From Methanobacteriota archaeon (GTDB lineage: Archaea; Thermoplasmatota; Thermoplasmata; Methanomassiliicoccales; Methanomethylophilaceae): a stretch of DNA of 34,938 bases. Under the pieces are notes generated by a model that saw only the letters and a list, made by a program, of their open reading frames with translations, ran no database searches and was not told where the DNA came from. The stretch is taken from assembly GCA_012719315.1 (NCBI GenBank), contig JAAYAP010000014.1:1-34938 (forward strand), given 5' to 3'. Every line of letters begins with the position of its first letter. The stretch's first letter is position 1. Shown here piece by piece: positions 1,452-7,556 of the stretch. The position numbers and the translations under genes are program-made.

Positions 1452-2288
1452 ATGGACGGCCTGCCCGCGTACGACAATCATTTCCACATGAGGCCGGACG
1501 GCAGGAACGTCGAGGCGGTCAGGGAGTTCGCGGCCGCCGGCGGGACCGGGCTGACGCTGGTCACCCTGCCCTACGCGGAGGTGCCGATAACCTGCGGCGC
1601 CGACTTCTCGGAATCCTACGGGATCACCTACCGGCTGGCCCGCATGGCCGTCGAGGCGGTCGGTATCGAGGTGAACATCGCGGTCGGACCGTACCCGGTC
1701 CTGATCCTGCCGCTTGCCGAGCGGTACGGCCTGGAGGCGGCCGAGGCGATGATGATCGAAGGCATGGAGGCCGCCGCCGCGGATGTCGCCGAAGGCCGGG
1801 CCTGCGCCCTCGGGGAGATCGGCAGACCGCATTTCGAGGTCGGATCGGATCTGATGGAGGCTTCGGACCGCATCCTGCTGAGGGGCATGGAGCTGGCCCG
1901 GGAGCACGACGTACCGGTGATCATCCATTGCGAATCCGGCACCGTCGACACCAACCGCTCGTTGCGCGCCATCGCCGATGCGGCGGGGCTCGACCCGGCG
2001 CTGGTGGTCAAGCACGCGTCCCCTCCGTTCGTCACCGACGCCGAGACGTACGGGGTGATGCCTTCGATGCCGGCGTCCAGATCCAACCTGGCCGAGGCCC
2101 TGTCGAAGGGCTCCTCCAGGTTCCTGATCGAGACGGATTACATCGACGACCTCGGCAAACCCTCCGCGGTCATGGCGCCGACGACCGTCCCCAGGAAGGT
2201 GAGGCAGATGACGTCCTCGGGCCTGGCCGACGCGGAGGCGGTGCACAGGATCTGCAGGGATCTGCCCGACATGCTGTACAAACGCTGA
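1452..2288 (+). CDS. TatD-like TIM-barrel metal-dependent hydrolase
   Basis: N-terminal DNHFHMRPDG, internal HCES and IETDYIDD motifs; true start is the ATG at 1452, within the longer 87..2288 ORF. Confidence 0.8.
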   Translation: MDGLPAYDNHFHMRPDGRNVEAVREFAAAGGTGLTLVTLPYAEVPITCGADFSESYGITYRLARMAVEAVGIEVNIAVGPYPVLILPLAERYGLEAAEAMMIEGMEAAAADVAEGRACALGEIGRPHFEVGSDLMEASDRILLRGMELAREHDVPVIIHCESGTVDTNRSLRAIADAAGLDPALVVKHASPPFVTDAETYGVMPSMPASRSNLAEALSKGSSRFLIETDYIDDLGKPSAVMAPTTVPRKVRQMTSSGLADAEAVHRICRDLPDMLYKR

Positions 2289-4009: not shown

Positions 4010-5308
4010 TCACTTCACCGGTTCCCATTTGGCCAACTCGTTGACCTTGGACAATGTGGATCCCCTGCGGATCTCCTCGCGGGTGCGGTTCTCCCGCTCG
4101 TTGACATCGATCGAGCGGTTGGCGACCTCGACGGCATGCTCGGCGGGCACCACGACGAGGCCGTTCTCGTCGCCGATGATCCAATCCCCGGTACGTACCC
4201 TCTGACCGCCGACGGCGATCTCCATGCCGATGCCGCCGTAGCCTTTGGCTTCGCCGGCGCAGGGCACGACGCTCCTGGAGAAGGCGGGGAAGCCGATCCT
4301 GCGGATATCGTCGATGTCCCTGATCGCGCCGTCGATGACGACCCCTCTGACGCCCATGACGATCGCGGAGTTGGTCGCCAGCTCCCCCCAGACGGCCATG
4401 GGGGCGCCGCCGACATCGATCACGATGACATCCCCGGGCATGGCGCGGTCGATGGCCTCGACCGGTTTGGCCCAGTCGCCGTTGCTGGTCTGGACGGTCA
4501 GCGCCCTGCCGACCATCCTGGCGCCGTCCTTGATATGAGGCTGCAGGCCCATGACGATCCCCGTCTTGTGCTGTGCGTCGGATATGTTGCAGGTGGAGCA
4601 TTTCGAGAAGGCTTCGAACAGCTCCTCCTCCCCGTATTTCTTGGCGATCTCCGACCTGACCTCGACACCGGCCATGGCCTTCTTGACGGTGGCCGCCGCC
4701 GATCTGATGTCGGGGGCCTTGATGATGCCGCCGCCGACGATCACGGCGGAGGCGCCGGCCTCGACGTATTCGCGGGCGGTGTCCGCGGTTATGCCTCCGG
4801 CCACCGCCACGGGCAGGCCGGTCTCGGAGACCATCCTCCTCAAGACGTCGATCGGGGGCTCCTCCCCCTTCATCTGGGAATCGATGCCCATGTGCAGGCA
4901 GATGTACCTCGCGCCCAGCTTCTCGACCTCCTTGGCCCTGGCCACGCGGTCGGGCACGCGTATCATGTCGACCATCACCGATGCGCCGTATTTCCTGCCG
5001 ACGGAGACGGCCTCCTCGATGGTGGCATCGTCGGCGAGACCGAGGACGGTGACGATATCGGCGCCGGCCTTGGCCATGATCTCCACCTCCAACCCGCCCA
5101 CGTCCATGGCTTTGACGTCGGCGACGATGGTGGCTTCGGGGAATTCCCTGCGCATGGCGCGGACCGCGTCCGCGCCTTCGCTCTTGACCAGAGGGGTGCC
5201 GACCTCCACCCAGTCGGCGCCGCCGTCAACGGCTTCCTTGGCGATGACGACGGCCCGGTTCAGCTGTATCAGGTCCAGCGCCACTTGCAGGACAGGCTTC
5301 ATGCGCAT
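4010..5308 (-). CDS. Bifunctional 3-hexulose-6-phosphate synthase / RraA-like (demethylmenaquinone methyltransferase-fold) fusion
   Basis: N-half HPS (LDLIQLNRAVVIAKEAVDGGADWVEVGTPLVKSEG, ADVKAMDVGG); C-half RraA-like (DVGGAPMAVWGELATNSAIVMGVRGVVIDGAIRD). Confidence 0.88.
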   Translation of the reverse strand: MRMKPVLQVALDLIQLNRAVVIAKEAVDGGADWVEVGTPLVKSEGADAVRAMRREFPEATIVADVKAMDVGGLEVEIMAKAGADIVTVLGLADDATIEEAVSVGRKYGASVMVDMIRVPDRVARAKEVEKLGARYICLHMGIDSQMKGEEPPIDVLRRMVSETGLPVAVAGGITADTAREYVEAGASAVIVGGGIIKAPDIRSAAATVKKAMAGVEVRSEIAKKYGEEELFEAFSKCSTCNISDAQHKTGIVMGLQPHIKDGARMVGRALTVQTSNGDWAKPVEAIDRAMPGDVIVIDVGGAPMAVWGELATNSAIVMGVRGVVIDGAIRDIDDIRRIGFPAFSRSVVPCAGEAKGYGGIGMEIAVGGQRVRTGDWIIGDENGLVVVPAEHAVEVANRSIDVNERENRTREEIRRGSTLSKVNELAKWEPVK

Positions 5309-5346: not shown

Positions 5347-5407
5347 CGCCGCTCAGCTCGCCCGTCTATCATCACGTTCAGCTCGATAAACGATCATCAT
5401 CGCGGCA
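5347..5407 (-). ncRNA. C/D box sRNA (2'-O-methylation guide)
   Basis: Minus strand: GCCGC-G-ATGATGA(C)-TCGTTTATCGAG-CTGA(D')-AC-GTGATGA(C')-TAGACGGGCGAG-CTGA(D)-GCGGC. Both guides exactly 12 nt; 5-bp terminal stem. Confidence 0.88.
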
Positions 5408-5437: not shown

Positions 5438-5515
5438 TTTGGCAATGCGGGGGCGTCTGACGGCCGCGACGGCGGGATCCGGGCAGGCTGCGGACCCCGT
5501 CGTCGCGGATACGCA

Positions 5516-6136
5516 TCAGGCCGTCTACGGGCAGAGGGACCGGGACGGCTCCGCCTCCTCGACCGCCGTCGCCCCGTTCCCGTCCAGACGCACCAGCGAC
5601 ACGATCGTCGGCCCCGTCTCCCCGCGGCGCAGACCCGTCCCGCGGTCGTTGCGCGACACGGCCTCCGTCCCGCGTCCGACCGGCCGACGTCGGCCGATCA
5701 GCACGTTGCGCACGCCCGTGTCCGGATCCGGCACGCATCTGACGGATGCGGAGGCCGCATCCGACGGCAGCATCTGCATGACCAGGGGCCCGAACTCGTC
5801 CTCCGTCCGGATCATGACGACCTCTGTCGCCGACGGACCCGATACGAACACCTCCTGTTGCCGCATGATGCTGCCGGTGAAGACGAGTCCCTCGGCAGGG
5901 TCGTTCTCCCCGGCCACGATGTACACGGGGCAGATGTCCGCCGCGCAGGCGAGGAAAGCATCGAAGGCGTCGACGGATCCCCCGTCCGGCTCGGAGGAGC
6001 CGTAGACATCCCCCGTGATGACGATGCCGTCGGCGCGTTCGCTCAAAGCGATGTCGCAGATCCCCTAGTGCGTGAACGCCGGCGATTCCGCGACGGGCGC
6101 TCCGATGCGCAGGTCCGACACATGGACCAATCTCAC
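5516..6136 (-). CDS. Divergent calcineurin-like metallophosphoesterase (SbcD/Mre11-like N-terminus) with in-frame TAG at codon 24; Pyl-containing gene or pseudogene
   Basis: VRLVHVSDLRIGAP...FTH[TAG]GICDIALSERADGIVITGDVY...VYIVAGENDP...; TAG at 6067-6065 and second TAG at 5527-5525 followed by ACG GCC TGA. Confidence 0.65.
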
Positions 6137-6191
6137 GGCCGCAGCCTCCCCGCTGCCGATGACGGCCCGTTTCCGCTCAGTTCCCGCGTCC

Positions 6192-6248
6192 GCACGGTCC
6201 GATCGCATACGACCGTGCACGCATTCCCATGATCCGGACAGGGTCCGG
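6192..6248 (-). other. Two perfect hairpins in the leader of the metallophosphoesterase gene
   Basis: GCACGGTC(11 nt)GACCGTGC at 6192-6218 and CCGGAC(AGG)GTCCGG at 6234-6248. Confidence 0.5.
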
Positions 6249-6308
6249 CATGTCTGTTGCCGCATCCGCCGACGGCGTTCCCCGGGGCCGACGACGGTGC
6301 GGCTGCTC

Positions 6309-6365
6309 TCATCCCATCTTCTTCTTGCATTTCACCCACTCCTTGGAGCGCACGGATGCGCTCAT
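6309..6365 (-). CDS. Putative 18-aa leader peptide MSASVRSKEWVKCKKKMG
   Basis: ATG..TGA sORF beginning about 25 nt downstream of a minus-strand TATA-like element (GTTAATATCTT). Confidence 0.3.
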   Translation of the reverse strand: MSASVRSKEWVKCKKKMG

Positions 6366-6446
6366 GATGAACAGGCGGTGCGGAAGATATTAACAAATCG
6401 TTGTAATCAATGTAATACATGTATGTTATGCAACGTATGATATACA

Positions 6447-6494
6447 GCAGCGCAGGCGACTGCCGGCGCCTCCGGCAGCCGTCTCCGACGCTGC
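6447..6494. other. Nested inverted repeat / strong stem-loop in intergenic region
   Basis: Outer GCAGCG...CGCTGC, inner CTGCCGG-CGCCT-CCGGCAG. Confidence 0.5.
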
Positions 6495-6558
6495 GGCGAG
6501 GCGTCACCGCCGCCGGACAAAACGTTTATCCCCTCATCCTGTTCTCCATCCGATTACA

Positions 6559-7035
6559 ATGTCCGATAAACCCGCGGAGAGGCTGAGAGTGCTGTTTGTG
6601 GATCAGAAGAACGACTCGGTGTCGCAGATCGCCGAGCACTTCACCAGGCAGATGTACGGGGACCTGTACGAGGTCTACAGTGCGGGTCCGGAGCATGACA
6701 TCGTGGATTGCGACCTGATCATCGCGATGTACCGGTCGGGCGAGGACATCAGACGGCATGTCTCCAAGGACTTCAAGAACCTGGAGCTCCTCCGCGAGGA
6801 CGAGGAGTACGACTTCGTCGTCTACCTCGCCGGCGGCACCTTCGAAGCGTGGGCGCCGAAGACCCCGTGGCAGGGGAAGCAGATCCTCGCCGACATGGGC
6901 TCGATACGGGATTACGAGTTCACCGACGAGGCCGAGCTGTTCGACGCCTACGACGAACTGGTGGCCAAGATCAGGAAGTGGGTCGTCGGGAACATGGGCG
7001 ATCCCGATCGCCTCAAGGCGCTAGTGTGCGCATGA
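6559..7035 (+). CDS. LMW protein tyrosine phosphatase / ArsC-fold pseudoenzyme
   Basis: VLFVDQKNDSVSQIAEHF...YSAGPEH matches the LMW-PTP N-terminus but the CxxxxxR P-loop is replaced by DQKNDSVS. Confidence 0.7.
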   Translation: MSDKPAERLRVLFVDQKNDSVSQIAEHFTRQMYGDLYEVYSAGPEHDIVDCDLIIAMYRSGEDIRRHVSKDFKNLELLREDEEYDFVVYLAGGTFEAWAPKTPWQGKQILADMGSIRDYEFTDEAELFDAYDELVAKIRKWVVGNMGDPDRLKALVCA

Positions 7036-7556
7036 TCCCGGTCAGAGTCTATGACGAGTGCCAATGCGATCCCCGCAAGTGCACCGCCAAGCGGATGCTG
7101 AGGTTCGGTCTCGCCCGGGAGGCGAAGCGGCTGTCCGACATCCCTCCCGGCTCGGTGGTGCTGTCGCCGTTCGCGGACCGGGTGCTGTCGCCGGCCGACC
7201 GCCGGCACGCCCGCAGGGGGCTGGTGGTCATGGACCTCACCTGGTCGCACATAGACGGGTTCCCGAAGGTCAGACGCGTCGAGGAGCGGGCGTTGCCGTA
7301 TCTGCTGGCCGCCAACCCGGTCAATTGGGGACGGCCCCTGGAGCTCAACAGCGCCGAGGCGGTGCTGGCGGCCCTGGTCATCCTCGGGGAGACGGAGCAG
7401 GCCGGGACCTTCATGGGGCGGTTCAACTGGGCTCCCGAGTTCATGAGGCTCAACGGGGACCTGCTGGCGGGTTATTCCGCGGCGAAGGACGGCGCCGAGG
7501 TCGCGAGGATACAGGAGGAGTACATCGCCTCCGTCGCGGATTCCCCCCGGACGTGA
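7032..7556 (+). CDS. tsr3: Tsr3-like 16S/18S rRNA aminocarboxypropyltransferase (DUF367)
   Basis: DECQCDPRKCTAKRML, VVMDLTWSHIDG, LPYLLAANPVNWGRPLELNSAEA; ATGA overlap with upstream gene. Confidence 0.92.
   Translation: MIPVRVYDECQCDPRKCTAKRMLRFGLAREAKRLSDIPPGSVVLSPFADRVLSPADRRHARRGLVVMDLTWSHIDGFPKVRRVEERALPYLLAANPVNWGRPLELNSAEAVLAALVILGETEQAGTFMGRFNWAPEFMRLNGDLLAGYSAAKDGAEVARIQEEYIASVADSPRT

Follow-up and report, generated by a model that had tools for sequence, protein, structure and literature searches.

When an archaeal frame is interrupted by a TAG codon, does it encode a pyrrolysine protein or is it a gene in decay? The question is raised by positions 5516..6136 on the minus strand of the window, that is, the whole 34,938-nucleotide stretch of DNA analysed here. 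A first, sequence-only reading offered two alternatives, UAG decoded as pyrrolysine or a degenerating gene. Both turn out to be partly right and not mutually exclusive, since the host appears to decode TAG and the gene has decayed. The frame is very probably a decaying fragment of sbcD, a DNA-repair nuclease gene, in a TAG-decoding methanogenic archaeon, in which the two TAG codons resemble missense changes and do not break the frame.

A frame with two TAG codons and its relation to SbcD

The minus-strand open reading frames 6265..6065 and 6046..5525 lie in one frame, with a TAG at 6067-6065 between them, at exactly the coordinates first reported. Judging from the sequence, the GTG at 6136 is likely the better start; it is preceded, 8 nt away, by a candidate Shine-Dalgarno-like site, GGGGAGG (6145..6151, minus strand). 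From this GTG, the read-through frame runs over 206 codons to a TGA stop (5516..6136), and contains a first TAG at codon 24 (6065..6067) and a second at codon 204 (5525..5527), the latter followed by ACG, GCC, and the TGA at 5518-5516, also as first described. The length of the open frame is weak evidence in itself: with the region's composition, a run of 174 codons without a stop has a chance of about 0.02 per frame, the regional GC content is 63.7%, and an antisense frame (5439..6005, plus strand) is likewise open. The continuation of the codon-position GC bias past the TAG, another early observation, holds, with GC at codon position 3 (GC3) of 0.83 before the first TAG and 0.86-0.91 after it. 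Over the fragment frame, GC3 is 0.85, which is gene-like (0.87 in genes versus 0.57 in spacers).

The frame is nevertheless taken as real because the sequences before and after the TAG are both homologous to relatives, and in one frame. A single homology match crosses the TAG, which rules out two unrelated reading frames, as had been argued at the outset from composition. In a whole-genome search, 36 of the 102 genomes of the family gave matches to the fragment (best foreign E-value 2.7e-25). They pass the TAG without leaving the frame, and the window's own match contains that TAG as its sole stop.

The gene had been described as metallophosphoesterase-like; this homology is real, but the family is narrower, namely SbcD/Mre11. 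A profile built from 24 relatives scores 88 bits against residues 1-137 of the frame and nothing beyond, so delimiting a part (5726..6136, minus strand, 137 codons) that corresponds by homology to about the first 143 residues of SbcD, and is 44% identical to the SbcD copy of a congener. The remainder (5516..5725, minus strand), of high GC content at codon positions 1 and 2, shows no detectable SbcD homology: its score of -1.6 bits was equalled by 260 of 2000 shuffles. A plausible-looking alignment extending SbcD homology to the frame end, with further in-frame deletions, was rejected since the tail does no better than these shuffles. Against TIGR00619 (SbcD, the nuclease subunit of SbcCD, Mre11 superfamily), the window frame reaches 42 bits, below the cut-off of 77.65, whereas the relatives are SbcD proteins, the copy of the congeneric genome G009 scoring 149 bits. 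These relatives' genes are intact (362-392 aa), and the next frame, directly after, begins like SbcC; an SbcC profile confirms sbcC after sbcD in G009.

The distribution of sbcD in the family is patchy, with matches in the same 36 genomes and none in the congener G008, which is 99% complete, so that the sbcDC genes look accessory in this family. Another sbcD-like copy of the family (L029, in G072:C40) has a TAA inside the match; decay of sbcD may therefore not be unique to the window.

TAG usage in the host genome

By all genomic evidence, the host decodes TAG as pyrrolysine. The search for pylTSBCD in the parent genome, proposed as a check, found these genes, plus two mtmB genes with one in-frame TAG each. 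Contig C17 carries pylS (279 bits by profile), followed by frames assigned, from their sequence and gene order, to pylB, pylC, pylD, and a reductive-activator-like protein. The pylT gene, missed by ARAGORN, was located by sequence just upstream of pylS.

In all three species of the window's genus and in four species of another genus (at the end of G000:C73 (L054), and at L055, L056, L136, L137, L138, and L181), a mini-ORF lies 58-90 nt before pylT; it has a Shine-Dalgarno-like site and a start codon, and TAG as its fourth codon, with a TGA or TAA within a few codons after it. It is present in 7 of 45 pylT upstream regions, versus 0.35 expected in shuffles, these sequences being related and not independent. 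It could be a putative UAG leader peptide, sensing the pyrrolysine supply.

TAG usage was counted on a 307-kb sample of the host genome with 224 gene calls, which end with TGA (200), TAA (16), or TAG (8). The eight TAG ends consist of the two mtmB genes, three genes with strong coding past the TAG, two antisense false calls, and the frame studied here, leaving no credible TAG-terminated gene among the 224 calls. Two antisense frames ending in TAG (1628..2086 and 7049..7453) were dropped as TAG-stopped genes because they lie opposite real genes. An in-frame TAG occurs in a cytidylate kinase gene (L158, G000:C8:1908-2441, plus strand) at codon 109, within the Pfam domain, in a DHH/DHHA1 phosphoesterase gene (L157, G000:C7:7874-9226, minus strand) at codon 235, in the stretch that separates its two domains, and in a gene for a BspA-like surface protein (L168, G000:C18:2-1951, plus strand) at codons 264 and 318, between domains. 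There are reportedly archaea in which every TAG codon is pyrrolysine, as a later paper is said to argue. The same trend was described for 'Ca. M. alvus', in which TAG stops make up 1.6%, and 16 predicted pyrrolysine proteins were listed beyond the methyltransferases, half of them with TAG-free homologues (Borrel et al. 2014, PMC4153887).

These counts bear on the nonsense mutation initially invoked for the degenerating gene: decay stands, but the term 'nonsense' is doubtful, with no credible TAG stop in the 307-kb sample. If the TAG at codon 24 were a true stop, without read-through, the gene would be a truncated pseudogene. A scarcity of methylamines may limit the incorporation of pyrrolysine, and some genes of other Methanomassiliicoccales still end at TAG (PMC4153887, PMC3941956), but housekeeping-type genes of this host read through TAG, and we regard a true stop as very improbable.

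In this host, TAG is best regarded as a sense codon for pyrrolysine, so neither TAG indicates a broken frame, and the one at codon 24 is real and probably readable. In a draft genome of 94 contigs, the TAG could conceivably have been introduced into an otherwise normal gene by faulty sequencing or assembly; nevertheless, the gene has decayed independently of this TAG, and the frame holds a second one, so that an error has a next to negligible probability.

A readable TAG is not necessarily a useful one. Conservation of the UAG position among relatives had been proposed as a check, and it was not observed: both the whole-genome matches and the alignment lack a TAG at the codon-24 site in every relative. 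In the alignment, this codon falls on a site that varies among relatives (D, Q, E, G, N, and others), although a gap of some 15 nt close by allows other placements, one of which sets the TAG on a conserved Q. Two TAG codons in 206 represent a density far above that of the credible genes in the 307-kb sample. A functional pyrrolysine enzyme is ruled out by the unconserved TAG and the altered metal site. Because what is left of sbcD here is truncated and decayed, it is very unlikely that pyrrolysine contributes to a function.

Signs of decay within the fragment

The metal-site motifs differ from those of SbcD (DLH to DLR, GNHD to GEND, with GD kept), as noticed early on and now confirmed against relatives; in the alignment with these relatives, the later motifs (H, GHxH) are not retained in the fragment. 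The full-length nuclease and capping domains are missing from the frame, the homology stopping at residue 137. Loss of constraint was assessed on invariant columns, defined as conserved in at least 95% of relatives: the fragment keeps 18 of 38 such residues, some of which fall in the poorly aligned tail, versus at least 35 of 38-40 for relatives under the same test. In the homologous part alone, 15 of 23 invariant columns are kept. The terminal branch leading to the fragment measures 1.43 substitutions per site, against 0.65 for the second longest, with a branch placement that lacks support.

Several features count against a decayed relic, namely the gene-like GC3, the absence of any frameshift, TAA, or TGA across the 137 homologous codons, and the Shine-Dalgarno-like site. 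In simulations, the absence of TAA and TGA arises by chance in about 0.3-0.85 of neutral cases, and the absence of frameshifts becomes less likely if indels are frequent, the indel rates being assumptions and the model simple and neutral. The gene-like GC3 and the unshifted homologous part suggest that decay is fairly recent, or that translation of the frame persisted for some of the time.

These same features, together with a TAG-decoding host and the fact that the stops in the frame are TAG only, would also fit a living gene, encoding a catalytically dead SbcD-like protein of 206 residues with two pyrrolysines, selected for a new, non-nuclease role. Nevertheless, family-invariant residues have been lost at random positions, the last third is without homology, no partner gene accompanies the frame, and no relative has the same form or conserves the TAG, which makes a living gene unlikely.

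The insert, the missing partner, and the meaning of the probable relic

The preferred reading, a decaying sbcD fragment, is also consistent with the surroundings. The fragment is flanked by a gene for a HUMPS/OMP-decarboxylase-like domain fused to an RraA-like domain (4010..5308, minus strand), and by one for a low-molecular-weight phosphatase-like protein (6559..7035, plus strand; E-value 7e-4, below the curated cut-off). In the congeneric genomes G008 and G009, these genes are divergent direct neighbours, separated by a spacer of about 0.2 kb without sbcD. The spacer beside the HUMPS-RraA gene aligns with these congeners up to about position 5442; the other 1.1 kb or so, which contains the fragment (5443..6558), is extra in the window and absent from the same spacer in both. 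In the genome collection, both flanking genes were found in 33 of 67 loci, within about 0.7 kb of each other in 25 of them, and the fragment is absent from all 33 other loci holding both. The sbcDC genes of G009 are located elsewhere, away from the flanking pair.

Regarding the origin of the insert, a search for mobile-element ends yielded weak repeats only, and no relative was found among viral contigs. The upstream ORF 6133..6507 was considered as a possible leftover of the gene that stands before sbcD in G009, but the two share a 17-residue match only (E-value 0.025). The spacer ahead of the HUMPS-RraA gene holds a C/D-box sRNA-like element (5350-5404, minus strand), conserved in G008 and G009; its best Rfam match is sR1, at 33.8 bits, below the gathering score of 45.

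No sbcC lies beside the fragment, and the rest of its own genome gave only short ATP-binding matches; since the assembly is 83.7% complete, an sbcC gene could be in the missing part. The archaeal Mre11 repair pathway is probably intact, as the genome carries an open Mre11-like gene at C55:28830.

The arguments for decay are thus that the gene is truncated, that catalytic residues are altered and constraint is lost, that the partner is missing, and that the insertion is private. The locus is best explained as a fragment of sbcD, within a lineage-specific insert, that has lost catalytic residues and its C-terminal half and has no sbcC partner. We infer a fragment without function, in the frame of which TAG is decoded; if still transcribed and translated, it would yield a short protein without activity, in which codons 24 and 204 are read as pyrrolysine, with neutral effect.

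Compared with known systems, the fragment resembles SbcD in its N-terminal 137 or so residues, but differs by its truncation, altered metal-site residues, lack of sbcC, and in-frame TAG codons. Like mtmB, in which the TAG serves catalysis, it carries an in-frame TAG in this host genome; the MtmB TAG is conserved across species, whereas that of the fragment is not conserved and does not fall on a catalytic site. The amber-codon genes described outside the methyltransferases in Methanomassiliicoccales (PMC4153887) share with it the in-frame TAG, the pyl-bearing host, and TAG-free homologues in relatives, but are mostly intact and conserved.

The relic itself matters little, but it offers a clean example for judging decay in organisms using TAG as an amino acid codon. 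Under standard annotation, such a frame would be broken in two and labelled a pseudogene with a nonsense mutation. TAG is uninformative here, and the evidence for decay has to come from the loss of motifs, from truncation, and from constraint. More broadly, the counts suggest that the host hardly uses TAG as a stop, so that housekeeping proteins, cytidylate kinase for example, may contain pyrrolysine.
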